From Micromonosporaceae bacterium (GTDB lineage: Bacteria; Actinomycetota; Actinomycetes; Mycobacteriales; Micromonosporaceae), in the NCBI GenBank assembly GCA_019689695.1, contig JADGHA010000003.1:1-32853 (forward strand): a stretch of DNA of 32,853 nucleotides, written 5' to 3'. Below the pieces are notes generated by a model that saw only the letters and a program-made list of their open reading frames with translations, had not been told where the DNA came from and ran no database searches. Both the position numbers and the translations under genes were made by a program. This document shows, piece by piece, positions 610 to 13,257 of this stretch (within the stretch, counting starts at the first letter, position 1; each line of letters begins with the position of its first letter).

Positions 610-686
610 TGGTGCCCCCGGTGGGAGTCGAACCCACACTGGCGGAGGTTTGAGCTCCGTGCCTCTGCCGATTGGGCTACGGGGAC
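610..686 (-). tRNA. tRNA with anticodon CAA (Leu), class I body (short variable loop), CCA encoded
   Basis: Minus-strand GTCCCCG TA GCC CAATCGGCAGA GGC A CGGAG CTCAAAC CTCCG CCAGT GTGGG TTCGACT CCCAC CGGGGGC A CCA folds as a complete cloverleaf: 7-bp acceptor with one U-G pair, 3-bp D stem with GG in the loop, 5-bp anticodon stem, 5-bp T stem. Confidence 0.9.
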
Positions 687-776: not shown

Positions 777-1403
777 GTGGCCGAGACGCAGGCGGGCCAG
801 CAGCGCCGGCGGGTGTTGATCGCCGAGGACGAGGCGCTGATCCGCCTCGACCTGGCCGAGATGCTCGCCGAGGAGGGGTACGACGTCGTCGGCGAGGCCG
901 GGGACGGGGAGACCGCCGTGCGCCTGGCCGAGGAGCTCAAGCCCGACCTGGTCATCCTCGACATCAAGATGCCGATCATGGACGGGCTGGCCGCCGCGGA
1001 GAAGATCGCCGGGGCGCGCATCGCGCCCGTGGTCATCCTGACCGCGTTCAGCCAGCGCGACCTGGTCGAGCGCGCCCGATCGGCCGGCGCCATGGCGTAC
1101 CTGGTCAAGCCGTTCCAGAAGAGCGATCTGGTGCCGGCGATCGAGGTGGCGCTGTCCCGGTTCGCCGAGATCGTTGCGCTGGAGTCCGAGGTGGCCGAGC
1201 TGACCGAGCGGCTGGAGACCCGCAAGGCGGTGGAGCGGGCCAAGGGCGAGCTGATGAGCGCGTACGGGATGAGCGAGCCGCAGGCGTTCAAGTGGATCCA
1301 GCGCACCGCGATGGACCACCGGATGACAATGCGTGAGGTGGCCGAGCGGATCCTCGCGGAGAGCGCCAGCGGCGGCCTGACACCGCCGGGTGGTCGGAGC
1401 TGA
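777..1403 (+). CDS. pdtaR: ANTAR-domain response regulator (PdtaR/Rv1626-like)
   Basis: GTG start. Receiver motifs VLIAEDEALIRLDLAEML...DLVILDIKMPIMDG...LTAF...VKPF, followed by a C-terminal ANTAR-like region (RKAVERAKGELMSAYGMSEPQAFKWIQRTAMDHRMTMREVAERIL). Confidence 0.9.
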   Translation: MAETQAGQQRRRVLIAEDEALIRLDLAEMLAEEGYDVVGEAGDGETAVRLAEELKPDLVILDIKMPIMDGLAAAEKIAGARIAPVVILTAFSQRDLVERARSAGAMAYLVKPFQKSDLVPAIEVALSRFAEIVALESEVAELTERLETRKAVERAKGELMSAYGMSEPQAFKWIQRTAMDHRMTMREVAERILAESASGGLTPPGGRS

Positions 1404-2641: not shown

Positions 2642-2756
2642 GCGCGGCGCAGACCGGCAGTAGCGGCCACGCCCTGGTGTGCCAATGGCCAATCGCCGGT
2701 GGCTGGCCTTGGCCAGGAAATCCCGTGGCCGTGGAATCGAGGAGGGGTCGACAGCC

Positions 2757-3938
2757 TTGAGGCAGGGACTCGTACGTGCGCTCGGCGGCGCCGCCATCCT
2801 GGCGCTCGTCGTCGGCGCGGCAGGGTGCAATAGCGGCAGTGACAACGACGGAGGCGGCGGATCGTCGGGCGGCGGCAAGAACTGCGGTTACAAGATCGCG
2901 TTCATGGGCGCGCTGACCGGCTCTGCGGCGAACCTCGGTATCAACATCGAGCAGGGCTACGAGCTGGCGATCAAGCAGTACAACGAGAAGAACGGCGCGG
3001 ACTGCATTCAGGTGGCCAAGTTCGACACCCAGGGTGACCCGGCGGTGGCCCCTGGCGTGGCCCGCCAGGCGGTCAGCGACCCCAAGGTCATCGGCGTGGT
3101 GGGCCTGCCGTTCTCCGGTGAGTCGGAGGCGGCCGGGCCGATCCTGAACGACGCGAAGATTCCGAACATCTCGCCGGCGGCGACCAACCCGACGTTGAGC
3201 ACGCACGGCTGGACCTACTTCCACCGCGCGGTGGCCACCGACAAGAACCAGGGCCCGGCCGCGGCGGCGTACATCCAGGACGTGCTCAAGCCGCAGAAGG
3301 TCTTCGTCGCCGACGACCAGTCGGCGTACGGCTCCGGCCTTGCCGAGGCGGTGAAGGCGAAGCTCGGGCCGATGGTGGTCGCGACCGACAAGACCAGCGC
3401 GGACGGCAAGCAGACCGACTTCTCGGCGATCGTGCAGAAGATCATCTCCAGCGGGGCCACGGTCTTCTTCTACGGTGGCTACTACACCAACGCCGGACTC
3501 ATCCGTAAGCAGCTGACCGCGGCCGGTTGGAAGGGCACCATGGTCGGCGGCGATGGCGTGAAGGACCCGGGCTTCGCCAAGGCGGCGGGTAACGCCGCGG
3601 CAGCCGGCACCGTGGTCACCTGCCCGTGCGCGCCGGCCTCCGAGGCGGGCGGCACCTTCGTCGCTGACTACAAGCAGACGTGGAACCAGGACGCCGGCAC
3701 GTACAGCGACGTGGCCTACGACGCGACGAACATCTTCCTGAAGGGCATCGACGAGGGGAACACGACCCCCGAGAAGATGAACGAATTCCTGAAGACGGTG
3801 GAGTACACCGGCGTGGCGAACACCTACAAGTTCACCGACACCGGTGAGCTGGACCCGCAGTACCTCAAGGTCTGGGCGTTCAAGTTCGACGCGAGCGGGG
3901 TTGACCAGCCAGTGCAGCAGATCAAGCTCACCAGCTGA
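2757..3938 (+). CDS. livK: branched-chain amino acid ABC transporter substrate-binding lipoprotein
   Basis: TTG start preceded by GAGGAGG. Lipobox VGAAGC. Periplasmic-binding LivK-type sequence (YKIAFMGALTGSAANLGINIEQGYELAIKQYN...). First gene of a liv cluster. Confidence 0.9.
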   Translation: MRQGLVRALGGAAILALVVGAAGCNSGSDNDGGGGSSGGGKNCGYKIAFMGALTGSAANLGINIEQGYELAIKQYNEKNGADCIQVAKFDTQGDPAVAPGVARQAVSDPKVIGVVGLPFSGESEAAGPILNDAKIPNISPAATNPTLSTHGWTYFHRAVATDKNQGPAAAAYIQDVLKPQKVFVADDQSAYGSGLAEAVKAKLGPMVVATDKTSADGKQTDFSAIVQKIISSGATVFFYGGYYTNAGLIRKQLTAAGWKGTMVGGDGVKDPGFAKAAGNAAAAGTVVTCPCAPASEAGGTFVADYKQTWNQDAGTYSDVAYDATNIFLKGIDEGNTTPEKMNEFLKTVEYTGVANTYKFTDTGELDPQYLKVWAFKFDASGVDQPVQQIKLTS

Positions 3939-3972
3939 GCCCGCTGCTTGTCGATCCGCACCTCTTACGGAC

Positions 3973-4062
3973 CGGTGGGGGGGGGGGGGGCGGGGGATCG
4001 GCGCCCCCACCCCGCCGCGGGGGCGCGGGGGGGGGGCGCCGCCCCCCCCCCCCCCCCCACCG
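3973..4062. repeat. long G/C-homopolymer inverted repeat (G14 ... G10 ... C17) between livK and livH
   Basis: CGGTG14C (3973-3991) is complementary to GC17ACCG (4041-4062), with further self-complementary GC sequence between them. Confidence 0.85.
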
Positions 4063-4084
4063 CCCATGTCCTTGTGGAGCTCGC

Positions 4085-5035
4085 TTGCATTTCGATGACC
4101 TTGCTCATAACTGGGGACCGCTGACCGCGTCGGGCCTGGCCCAGGGCGCTATCTACGCCCTCTTCGCGCTCGGCTACACGCTGGTCTACGGGGTCCTCCG
4201 GCTGATCAACTTCGCGCACTCCGAGGTGTTCATGGTGGGCAGCTACGCCGCCCTGATCACCTGGGGCTTCTTCGGCCTGGACGAGAACTCGGCGACTCCG
4301 CCGGCCACCGAGGTGATCGGCTACGTGGTGCTCGGCGTGCTGGTCGCGGCGGCCATCTCCGGGATCACAGCGCTCGTCGTCGAGCTGGTCGCCTACCGAC
4401 CGCTGCGCCGTCACAACGCCCCGCCACTGGCCTTCCTGATCACCGCGATCGGCGCCTCGCTGGTCATCTCCGAGGCGGTCGGCGTGGCGACCCATCGAAA
4501 CCAGCGGGGGGTGCCGCCGCTGATCCAACCGGCCGACGCGTTCACCATCGGCAACACGCACGTCACCAACCTGGAGATCTTGATCATCCTCCTGACGCTG
4601 GTGATGATGGTCGGGCTGGACCGGTTCATCAACCGGACCCGACTCGGCCGTGGCATCCGGGCTGTCGCCCAGAGTCCGGACACCGCGGCCCTGATGGGTG
4701 TGAACAAGGACCGGGTGATCTCCCTGGTGTTCCTGATCGGTGGCCTGATGGCCGGGATCGCGGCGGTGATGTACCTGTTCAAGATCGGCACCACCCGGTA
4801 CGACGCCGGGTTCAGCCTGGGCATCGCCGCGTTCACCGCGGCCGTGCTGGGCGGCATCGGCAACCTGCGGGGCGCGGTGGTCGGCGGCATCATCATCGGC
4901 CTGTTCGAGAACTACGGCTCGGCGTTGTTCGGCAGCAACTACCGCAACGTGGTGACGTTCGTCGTGCTCATCGTGATCCTGATGTTCCGGCCGAGCGGGA
5001 TTCTCGGCGAGGCACTCGGGAGGGCCAGAGCATGA
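4085..5035 (+). CDS. livH: branched-chain amino acid ABC transporter permease LivH
   Basis: TTG start. Multi-TM protein with LivH-type sequence (GAIYALFALGYTLVYGVLRLINFAHSEVFMVGSY...). Confidence 0.9.
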   Translation: MHFDDLAHNWGPLTASGLAQGAIYALFALGYTLVYGVLRLINFAHSEVFMVGSYAALITWGFFGLDENSATPPATEVIGYVVLGVLVAAAISGITALVVELVAYRPLRRHNAPPLAFLITAIGASLVISEAVGVATHRNQRGVPPLIQPADAFTIGNTHVTNLEILIILLTLVMMVGLDRFINRTRLGRGIRAVAQSPDTAALMGVNKDRVISLVFLIGGLMAGIAAVMYLFKIGTTRYDAGFSLGIAAFTAAVLGGIGNLRGAVVGGIIIGLFENYGSALFGSNYRNVVTFVVLIVILMFRPSGILGEALGRARA

Positions 5036-6147
5036 CCACCGTGCAGACGATCCTCCGGTGGCGCGGCCCGGACGGCGGGGTCCGGGGCTGGTTCGGCCGC
5101 CAACCACGGCTGGTCCGATGGACGCTCCTGGCCGCGATCGCGGCCGGGGCGTACGCGCTGCCGTACGTCGGCGAGGTCCCCGTCATCGGTCCGCAGATCG
5201 TGACCGAGGGCGTCGACTGGCGGACCGCCCTGTTCAACATCTCCTACTTCGTGCTGCTGGCGCTCGGGCTGAACGTGGTGGTCGGCTTCGCCGGCCTGCT
5301 CGACCTGGGCTACGTCGGCTTCTTCGCGGTGGGTGCGTACACCGTCGCCCTGCTCGCCTCGCCGAACAGCGACTTCAAGACGAACTGGCCGTGGCTGGCC
5401 ACGGTCCCGGTGGCGATCGTGATCACCATGATCTCCGGTGTGCTGCTGGGCTGGCCGACGCTCCGGCTGCGCGGCGACTACCTGGCCATCGTCACGCTCG
5501 GCTTCGCCGAGATCATCCGGATCTTCGCGGAGAACACCACGCTGCTGCGCGGAGACCGCGGCTTCAGCGGTATCCCACACCCGCCGGGCAAGCACGCCGA
5601 CGGCACGCCGATCTTCGGGGTCCGTGACGCGGGGCCGTACTACTGGCTCGGGGTCAGCCTGATCATCGTGATCGTCCTGGCCATCCGCAACCTGGACCGC
5701 AGCCGGGTGGGCCGGTCGTGGCTGGCGATCCGCGAGGACGAGGATGCCGCGGCGATCATGGGCGTGCGTACCTTCAAGTACAAGCTGTGGGCCTTCGCCA
5801 TCGGCGCCTGTGTCGGCGGGCTGGGCGGAGTGATGTTCGCCGGCCAGAACGGCTTCATGAACTCGGCCAGCTTCCAGATCCAGTTCTCTGTCCTGATCCT
5901 GGCCGGCGTGGTGATGGGCGGTTCCGGCAACATCGCCGGGGCGATCCTCGGCGGCGCGCTCATCTCGTACATCCCGGACCGGCTGCGCGGCGTCGAGATC
6001 GCCGGCCAGGACGCGTTCCAGTACCGGTTCCTGATGTTCGGTATCGCGATCATCCTGATCATGATCTTCCGGCCGCAGGGCCTGATCCCGAGCCGGCGCC
6101 GGGCGATGGAGCTGAAGGACCGGGCGAAGGAGGTGGCGCCGCAATGA
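5032..6147 (+). CDS. livM: branched-chain amino acid ABC transporter permease LivM
   Basis: ATGA overlap with livH. LivM-type sequence (LNVVVGFAGLLDLGYVGFFAVGAYT...). Confidence 0.9.
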   Translation: MTTVQTILRWRGPDGGVRGWFGRQPRLVRWTLLAAIAAGAYALPYVGEVPVIGPQIVTEGVDWRTALFNISYFVLLALGLNVVVGFAGLLDLGYVGFFAVGAYTVALLASPNSDFKTNWPWLATVPVAIVITMISGVLLGWPTLRLRGDYLAIVTLGFAEIIRIFAENTTLLRGDRGFSGIPHPPGKHADGTPIFGVRDAGPYYWLGVSLIIVIVLAIRNLDRSRVGRSWLAIREDEDAAAIMGVRTFKYKLWAFAIGACVGGLGGVMFAGQNGFMNSASFQIQFSVLILAGVVMGGSGNIAGAILGGALISYIPDRLRGVEIAGQDAFQYRFLMFGIAIILIMIFRPQGLIPSRRRAMELKDRAKEVAPQ

Positions 6148-10503: not shown

Positions 10504-13257
10504 GTGAATGACACCTCGCCGCGCCCTGCCCGGCCCGGCCCGGCGGGCCGGCCGACGTTGCTGCTGCTGGACGGGCACTCCCTGGCCTACCGGGCGTTCT
10601 TCGCGCTGCCGGTGGAGAACTTCTCCACCACCACCGGCCAGCCCACCAACGCGGTGTACGGGTTCACCTCCATGCTGATCAACGTCCTGCGCGACGAGAA
10701 GCCCACCCACATCGCCGTCGCGTTCGACGTGTCCCGGCACTCCTTCCGCACCGAGAAGTACGCGGAGTACAAGGCCGGCCGGGTGGAGAGCCGCCCCGAG
10801 TTCGGCGGGCAGGTGAGCCTGATCAAGGAGGTGCTGGCCGCGCTGCGCATCCCGGTGGTGGAGAAGGAGGGCTACGAGGCGGACGACGTCATCGCCACCC
10901 TCGCCGGCCGGGCCCGCGCCGAGGGCATGGACGTGCTGATCTGCACCGGCGACCGGGACGCCTTCCAGCTCGTCAACGACCGGGTCACCGTGCTCTACCC
11001 CCGGCGGGGCGTCTCGGAGCTGGACCGGATGGACGCGGCGGCGGTGACCGAGCGGTACGGCGTGGGTCCCGAGCGGTACCGCGACCTGGCCGCGCTGGTC
11101 GGCGACACCAGCGACAACCTGCCGGGCGTGCCCGGGGTGGGCCCGAAGACCGCGGCGAAGTGGATCAACCAGTACGGCTCCCTGACCGAGGTCATCGCCC
11201 ACGTCGACGAGATCAAGGGCAAGGCCGGCGACAGCGTGCGCGAGCACCTGGCCGGGGTGATCCGCAACTACGAAATCAACTGCCTGGTCGACGACCTGGA
11301 GCTGCCCCTGGCGCCGGCCGACACGCGTTGGCACGGGTGGGACCGGGAGGCCGTGCACCGCGTCTTCGACGCGCTGGAGTTCCGGATCCTGCGCGAGCGC
11401 CTCTACCAGTACCTGGAGGCGGTCGAGCCGGAGGCGGAGGCCGGCTTCGAGCTGGCCGGCCAGGTGCTGGCGGCCGGCCAGGTGGCCGGCTGGCTGGCCG
11501 AGCACACGGGCGGGCAGCAGCCGGTCGGGGTCGCGGTCACCGGCACGTTCGGCCGGGGGACGGGCTCGCTGACCGGGGTCGCCGTGGCCACCGCCGGGGG
11601 AGCGGCCGCCTGGTTCGACCCGACCCAGCTGGACGCCGAGGACGAGGCGGCGGTGGCCGCCTGGCTCGCCGACGAGGACCGGCCCAAGGTTCTGCACGAC
11701 GTCAAGCCCGCGCTGCTCGCGTTCCAGGCGCACGGCTGGCGGCTGCGCGGCGTCCGCGACGACACCGCGCTCGCGGCCTACCTGGCCCGGCCGGACCAGC
11801 GCTCCTACGACCTGACCGACCTGGCCCTGCGCTACCTGCAGCGGGAGCTGCGGGTGGAGGGCCCGGGGGACGGCCAGCTGGCGCTGGAAGGGCTGGGCCC
11901 GCAGGACGAGCTGGAGCAGAACCTGATGCTGCGCGCCCGCGCCACGCTGGACCTGGCCGGCGCGCTGCGCGCCGCACTGGCCAACGGCGGGGGCACCGGG
12001 CGGGCCGCGTCGGCGGATGCGACGGGCGCGGCGAGCCGGCTGCTCGCCGAGGTGGAGCTGCCGCTGGTCGAGGTGCTCGCCGGCATGGAGCGGGTGGGCA
12101 TCGCCGCGGACACGCACTACCTGTCCGAGCTGGAGTCTCACTTCGCGGCCGAGGTGAAGGCCGCCGCCCAGGCCGCGTACGCCGAGGTTGGCCGGGAGTT
12201 CAACCTGGGCTCGCCCAAGCAGCTGCAGGAGATCCTCTTCGGCCAGCTGGGGCTGCCCAAGACCAAGCGGATCAAGACCGGCTACACCACCGACGCCGAC
12301 GCCCTGCAGGGCTTGTACGCGCAGACCGGCAACCCGCTGCTGGCGCACCTGCTGCGGCACCGGGACGTGGCCAAGCTGAAGTCCACGGTGGACGGCCTGC
12401 TCAAGGCGGTCAGCGACGACGGCCGCATCCACACCACGTTCCTGCAGACCTCGGCGGCCACTGGTCGGCTCGCCTCCACCGATCCCAACCTGCAGAACAT
12501 TCCGATCCGCACCGAGGAGGGCCGGCGGATCCGGCGGGCGTTCGTCGTCGGCGACGGGTTCGAGACGCTGATGACCGTCGACTACAGCCAGATCGAGATG
12601 CGGATCATGGCGCACCTGTCCCGGGACGAGGCGCTGATCGAGGCGTTCAACAGCGGCCGGGACTTCCACGCGGTGACCGCCTCCTCGGTCTTCGGCGTCC
12701 CGGTCACCGAGGTGGGCCCGGACCAGCGCCGCAAGATCAAGGCGATGAACTACGGCCTGGCGTACGGCCTGTCCGCGTACGGCCTGTCCACCCAGCTGGG
12801 CATCACCCCGGCCGAGGCGTCGGTGCTGATGGAGGAGTACTTCAAGACCTTCGGCGGGGTGCGCGACTACCTGAAGGCGGTGGTGGACCAGGCCCGCCGT
12901 GACGGGTACACCGAGACGATCCTCGGCCGGCGGCGCTACCTGCCGGATCTGGTCAGCGACAACCGGCAGCGCCGCGAGATGGCCGAGCGGATGGCGCTCA
13001 ACGCGCCGATCCAGGGCTCCGCGGCGGACATCATCAAGGTGGCGATGCTGCGGGTGGACCGGGCGCTGCGCGAGTCCGGGCTCCGCTCGCGGATGCTGTT
13101 GCAGGTGCACGACGAGCTGGTCTTCGAGGTGGCGACGGGGGAGCGGGTGGCGCTGGAGGAGCTGGTCAGGCGGGAGATGGGCGGGGCATACCCGCTGTCC
13201 GTGCCGTTGGAGGTGTCGGTCGGCGCCGGCGACAACTGGGCCGTCGCCGATCACTGA
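10504..13257 (+). CDS. polA: DNA polymerase I
   Basis: GTG start. 5'-nuclease motifs (EADDVIATLA, CTGDRDAFQL, GDTSDNLPGVPGVGPKTA) and polymerase motifs A (VDYSQIEMRIMAHLS), B (RRKIKAMNYGLAYGLSAYGL) and C (QVHDELVFEV). Confidence 0.97.
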   Translation: MNDTSPRPARPGPAGRPTLLLLDGHSLAYRAFFALPVENFSTTTGQPTNAVYGFTSMLINVLRDEKPTHIAVAFDVSRHSFRTEKYAEYKAGRVESRPEFGGQVSLIKEVLAALRIPVVEKEGYEADDVIATLAGRARAEGMDVLICTGDRDAFQLVNDRVTVLYPRRGVSELDRMDAAAVTERYGVGPERYRDLAALVGDTSDNLPGVPGVGPKTAAKWINQYGSLTEVIAHVDEIKGKAGDSVREHLAGVIRNYEINCLVDDLELPLAPADTRWHGWDREAVHRVFDALEFRILRERLYQYLEAVEPEAEAGFELAGQVLAAGQVAGWLAEHTGGQQPVGVAVTGTFGRGTGSLTGVAVATAGGAAAWFDPTQLDAEDEAAVAAWLADEDRPKVLHDVKPALLAFQAHGWRLRGVRDDTALAAYLARPDQRSYDLTDLALRYLQRELRVEGPGDGQLALEGLGPQDELEQNLMLRARATLDLAGALRAALANGGGTGRAASADATGAASRLLAEVELPLVEVLAGMERVGIAADTHYLSELESHFAAEVKAAAQAAYAEVGREFNLGSPKQLQEILFGQLGLPKTKRIKTGYTTDADALQGLYAQTGNPLLAHLLRHRDVAKLKSTVDGLLKAVSDDGRIHTTFLQTSAATGRLASTDPNLQNIPIRTEEGRRIRRAFVVGDGFETLMTVDYSQIEMRIMAHLSRDEALIEAFNSGRDFHAVTASSVFGVPVTEVGPDQRRKIKAMNYGLAYGLSAYGLSTQLGITPAEASVLMEEYFKTFGGVRDYLKAVVDQARRDGYTETILGRRRYLPDLVSDNRQRREMAERMALNAPIQGSAADIIKVAMLRVDRALRESGLRSRMLLQVHDELVFEVATGERVALEELVRREMGGAYPLSVPLEVSVGAGDNWAVADH

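Follow-up and report, generated by a model that had tools for sequence, protein, structure and literature searches.

The tRNA gene and its surroundings

The window analysed here, 32,853 nucleotides long, is one whole contig (G000:C501) of a draft genome of a Micromonosporaceae bacterium that is in 649 contigs and 80% complete. ARAGORN finds a single tRNA in the window, tRNA-Leu(caa) at 610-686 on the minus strand, and the Rfam model RF00005 matches 613-686 of that strand with 51 bits (gathering score 29; E = 2.6e-8). By both programs, the tRNA is a complete cloverleaf with a leucine anticodon. Read along the minus strand, the sequence is GTCCCCG TA GCC CAATCGGCAGA GGC A CGGAG CTCAAAC CTCCG CCAGT GTGGG TTCGACT CCCAC CGGGGGC A CCA, and the 77-nt molecule has a 7-bp acceptor stem, a 3-bp D-stem, the anticodon loop CUCAAAC and a normal T arm (Table 1). 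The gene is already routinely annotated as tRNA-Leu.

The sequence-only reading of this DNA described a class I body with a CAA anticodon, a 5-nt variable region, A73 and an encoded CCA, all of which are exact in the sequence, ARAGORN and Rfam. It also saw a departure from the textbook form of tRNA-Leu, and this is borne out by the variable loop CCAGU, which has five nucleotides where the long arm of class II has 10 or more. The tRNA carries the full signature of a class I tRNA-Leu lineage: the 5-nt variable loop, a D arm of the form CCAAY-N(0,1)-GGNAGAG, U48, A73 and a leucine anticodon.

Table 1. Features of the tRNA gene and the adjoining gene in the window
Feature	Position	Strand	Basis
Class I tRNA-Leu(CAA) gene, 77 nt including encoded CCA	610..686	-	ARAGORN, Rfam
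Discriminator A73	613..613	-	Sequence; A73 in 65/65 bacterial CAA relatives
5-nt variable loop CCAGU, final base U48 pairs with A15	638..642	-	Sequence; relatives
Anticodon CAA (reads UUG), loop CUCAAAC with A37	650..652	-	Sequence; ARAGORN anticodon position 35
Leucine-type D arm: 3-bp stem, C13.A22 unpaired, A14 A15, G18G19, C20 A20a	661..677	-	Class II Leu layout of the same genome; stem covaries in relatives
Divergent pdtaR homologue with Response_reg and ANTAR, 90 bp away from the 5' end of the tRNA; landmark of the conserved locus	777..1403	+	Pfam; synteny

After pdtaR follow genes of a branched-chain amino acid transporter (a binding protein and two permeases, 2679-6147), which lie near the tRNA-Leu, and polA, the DNA polymerase I gene, lies in the same neighbourhood (10504-13257).

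Conservation of the cloverleaf

Folding by minimum energy sets the tRNA only weakly above shuffled sequences (z = -2.0) and gives misshapen D and anticodon arms; the structure was therefore judged by comparative pairing. The comparison drew on 65 distinct class I relatives with a CAA anticodon from bacterial genomes. In all 65, the positions of the acceptor, D- and T-stems are paired. The D-stem shows compensatory changes, with GC, TA and CG at 10-25 and CG, TA and AT at 11-24. C13.A22 is invariant and never paired, which leaves a D-stem of 3 bp as in class II tRNA-Leu. A15-U48 and A73 are each present in 65/65 relatives, and the commonest variable loop is NCAGU. As far as a comparison of sequences can tell, a chance fold is ruled out by this pairing and by the compensatory changes.

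Leucine identity of the body

The LeuRS of E. coli requires A73, A15-U48, G18G19 and A20a, while variants without the long arm stay active (PMC9976931). The tRNA of the window has every one of these determinants, a set established in E. coli and not in actinobacteria. The class I tRNA has a D arm (TA GCC C AATCGGCAG A GGC) laid out like that of class II tRNA-Leu in the same genome (TG GCG G AATGGCAG A CGC), with a 3-bp stem, an unpaired 13.22, A14-A15, G18G19 and A20a; apart from the D arm and the discriminator, the sequences of the two classes differ.

The link between this body and leucine was approached from both directions. One search pattern fixed the D arm, the 5-nt length of the loop and part of the T loop, and left the anticodon open. 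Among the matches listed from viral contigs, the anticodon is one for leucine in 128 of 129 (UAA 59, UAG 37, CAA 19, GAG 5, AAG 4, CAG 4), the other one being His. Among those listed from one genome per bacterial species, the figure is 120 of 120 (UAA 60, CAA 41, UAG 10, CAG 6, AAG 2, GAG 1), and nearly all of these come from Actinomycetota. U48 is found in 341/342 distinct sequences and A73 in 340/341 readable ones; neither was required by the pattern. The converse search of viral sequences fixed the CAA anticodon, the short loop and CCA, and left the D arm open. It returned 98 distinct class I CAA tRNAs, of which 95 have A15, U48 and A73 together and 77 a strict leucine-type D loop, the remainder being mostly one nucleotide longer. 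Across 931 tRNAs from viral loci, a set that was partly pre-selected, the full determinant set is present in 143/158 class I leucine tRNAs and is rare otherwise. On the anticodon-free and determinant counts, the body is not that of a non-leucine isotype, which a remoulded tRNA would have.

Exchange of class II for class I beside pdtaR

The sequence-only reading had proposed a survey of orthologs beside pdtaR, and this survey reveals a locus that is conserved for class I and common to class II. In the family of the window, a pdtaR homologue adjoins the class I tRNA-Leu(CAA) in 26 of 28 called loci; beyond these, 12/13 additional class I loci have it as a neighbour, as do 13/14 class II loci. 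Among the matches listed from one genome per species, pdtaR stands beside 31 of 41 CAA copies and 0 UAA copies. For one pair, the class I and class II loci of a single genus align flank to flank through the tRNA over ~3.1 kb.

The other leucine tRNAs of the window's genome (UAA, UAG, CAG, GAG) are all class II. A second tRNA with a CAA anticodon, class II included, was not found in this genome, from whose assembly, 80% complete, it could be missing; the class I gene is probably the sole CAA-anticodon tRNA there. It had been asked whether a canonical class II tRNA-Leu(CAA) exists alongside, and none appears in the wider sample either: of 296 genomes of the class, 179 match the class I Leu(CAA) pattern, 61 the class II pattern, and 0 match both, against about 37 expected (hypergeometric 8e-31, a value that ignores relatedness, the overlap having been read off tables by eye and related genomes not being independent). 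Of the 56 genomes that matched neither pattern, two were examined: one has a class II tRNA-Leu(CAA) missed by the pattern, and the other carries a class I tRNA of the second type described below, whose D arm differs. Both states occur within each of the genera g62, g64, g76, g79, g99, g105 and g109.

Outside the variable region, identity between the class I and class II tRNAs of one genus is 68-70%; between class I tRNAs from different families it ranges over 65-87%, and the best comparisons give 81-87%. A simple deletion of the long arm was considered as the origin and is disfavoured, since the two tRNAs of one genus differ throughout. Because identity between class I tRNAs across families exceeds that between the classes within a genus, the comparison, made on few pairs of short sequences, favours a scenario in which the class II tRNA was exchanged for a different tRNA and not stripped of its arm in place.

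The class I form is also widespread in actinobacteria as tRNA-Leu(UAA), the isoacceptor of bldA (L337 in G093, and loci such as L223, L244 and L286). Of 88 genomes, 26 match a class I UAA pattern and 8 a class II UAA pattern, with an overlap of 0 (p = 0.05); it is clear that members escape the class II pattern, and the exclusion for UAA is only suggestive.

Use of UUG

In 20 open reading frames of the window, UUG accounts for 41 of 892 leucine codons (4.6%), against 2 UUA codons. It is present in 18 of the 20, including pdtaR. These counts are approximate, as they cover the window only and the open reading frames were chosen by composition. The earlier statement that UUG is rare holds as far as its minor share of the leucine codons goes, yet the codon occurs in nearly all of the frames. 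UUA, the codon read by the Streptomyces bldA tRNA-Leu(UAA), is kept to auxiliary genes (PMC4932002). Among the open reading frames of the window, UUG is not confined to a few auxiliary genes in this manner.

Proposed function and alternative readings

The gene is very probably a functional, UUG-reading leucine tRNA of the class I lineage, recognised by LeuRS without a long arm and standing in for class II tRNA-Leu(CAA) beside pdtaR. LeuRS would most likely recognise A73 together with the corner of the D and T arms (A15-U48, G18G19, A20a); as the class I tRNA has kept these determinants, the long arm would be dispensable. At the pdtaR locus of Actinomycetes, the class I tRNA takes the place of the class II tRNA-Leu(CAA). 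In each of 12 genomes that carry one class or the other, one LeuRS match (leuS) lies above the curated cut-off (12/12), so that the same enzyme presumably charges the long-armed and the short-armed tRNA-Leu. We infer charging by this single LeuRS, expression and use on the ribosome.

Two alternatives concern what the tRNA does with UUG. The short variable loop, together with a precedent reported in human (PMC8450103), could point to a tRNA of non-leucine identity that reads UUG as another amino acid. This is very unlikely, since this body is found with every leucine anticodon and hardly any other, the D arm is of the leucine type, and A73 and A15-U48 are universal among the 65 relatives. It would also mean, given that class II tRNA-Leu(CAA) was replaced in many lineages, that UUG had been recoded repeatedly in otherwise ordinary genes. 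The suggestion that the tRNA might be mischarged is likewise unsupported, as the leucine determinants are kept, leucine anticodons are near-exclusive and class II is replaced one for one. It had also been proposed, by analogy with bldA, that the tRNA is regulatory, with UUG limited to special genes under its control. That UUG is a minor leucine codon in the window would fit, but its spread over 18 of 20 open reading frames, pdtaR among them, does not, and the tRNA is the only one with a CAA anticodon that was found and not an extra copy. With class II replaced one for one, a bldA-like role finds no support and is highly improbable.

A further alternative is that the gene is a pseudogene, or a tRNA-like relic left by a phage or an integrative element, and has no role in translation. 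In favour of this, class I tRNA-Leu is common in phages and integrases adjoin some copies. Against it stand the near-perfect pairing with compensatory changes across 65 sequences, the conserved locus where no class II partner was matched, and the absence from the window of a remnant 3' repeat, and a relic is accordingly extremely unlikely.

Relation to known leucine tRNAs

A class II tRNA-Leu(CAA) from the same family (G003:6437246-6437328) serves as an example of the bacterial class II form. It is alike in anticodon, A73, A15-U48, G18G19 and A20a, in the 3-bp D-stem and the unpaired 13.22, and in its place next to pdtaR, but it has a long variable arm instead of the 5-nt loop. Class I tRNA-Leu is also known from phages and tRNA arrays (mycobacteriophage, corynephage, cyanophage P-RSM6, Sinorhizobium phage), and most of these tRNAs share the D-arm motif, the 5-nt loop and A73; they have mostly UAA or UAG anticodons and in phages are extra copies, whereas that of the window has CAA and is not an extra. 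A tRNA-Leu(TAG) with a short loop has been noted in a phage-like cluster (PMC6582537). The bldA tRNA-Leu(UAA) of Streptomyces is likewise a minor leucine tRNA of actinobacteria; it reads UUA, a codon of auxiliary genes, while the tRNA of the window reads UUG with no sign of such a restriction. In animal mitochondria, too, tRNA-Leu is short-armed, and its determinants are A73 and A14 (PMC9976931), but it is organellar and structurally weakened, whereas the tRNA of the window is a normal bacterial cloverleaf.

According to a 2023 review, short-armed tRNA-Leu is limited to animal mitochondria (PMC9976931). In a 2024 paper, tRNA-Leu-2, 3 and 5 alone of M. tuberculosis were named as long-armed (PMC11541572), which implies two tRNA-Leu without a long arm in that species. 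In a literature search that was thin on subscription journals, neither a description of class I tRNA-Leu(CAA) in actinobacteria nor a statement of the general fact was found. Judged by its sequence and relatives, the tRNA is an overlooked class I form of the ordinary UUG-reading leucine tRNA, widespread in Actinomycetes and in phages, and contradicts the 2023 review. The rule that tRNA-Leu has a long arm everywhere but in animal mitochondria (PMC9976931) appears not to hold throughout a major bacterial class. One LeuRS that serves both long-armed and short-armed tRNA-Leu would be a natural experiment on what the enzyme reads, and the in-place swap of two unlike tRNA bodies offers a tractable case of replacement for a probably essential tRNA gene. 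Programs that predict isotypes and count on a long arm may mark class I tRNA-Leu genes as suspect.

Phages, mobility and further short-armed types

Class I tRNA-Leu is frequent in phages. The phages Omega and Gaia integrate at the tRNA-Leu-CAA of M. smegmatis, and Gaia has its own copy (PMC10865867). In Tsukamurella and one other member of the order, the tRNA has an integrase homologue beside it, and some UAA copies have one nearby; copies with such a neighbour are few overall. tRNA genes are common integration sites anyway. Taken together, the abundance in phages, the integration of Omega and Gaia and the adjoining integrases make a phage vehicle for the swap between the classes plausible, if hypothetical. 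In the window itself, a duplicated 3' end of the tRNA was not found and no integrated element is visible; phage integration there is ruled against by the missing duplication.

It is possible, although on balance doubtful, that class I tRNA-Leu is a separate lineage that travels with phages and integrative elements and has repeatedly taken over the site of class II tRNA-Leu(CAA) next to pdtaR on actinobacterial chromosomes. A selective reason could be that toxins or nucleases which recognise host tRNA-Leu miss a tRNA that has no long arm. Within this reading, the displacement is supported, while both the carriage by phages and the selective reason are hypothetical.

The plasmid pTY66_01 of Mycolicibacterium sp. 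TY66 (L032) holds an array of 27 tRNAs that is not in the plasmid's gene table and includes tRNA-Leu of class I as well as of the long-armed form. A second class I type, with the D arm GGCAAATTGGNAAAGCC (CAAAY..GGNAAAG), occurs at L339 (G093) and at L032:386-463; in viral contigs, this type has a leucine anticodon in 86 of 106 distinct matches, the others being mostly Gln and Glu. Viral class I tRNA-Leu(CAA) with a further D arm (GAAGGGAAY..GGTATACCT), U48 and A73 is found at L419, L425, L439 and L363, and these are further independent short-armed leucine tRNAs.
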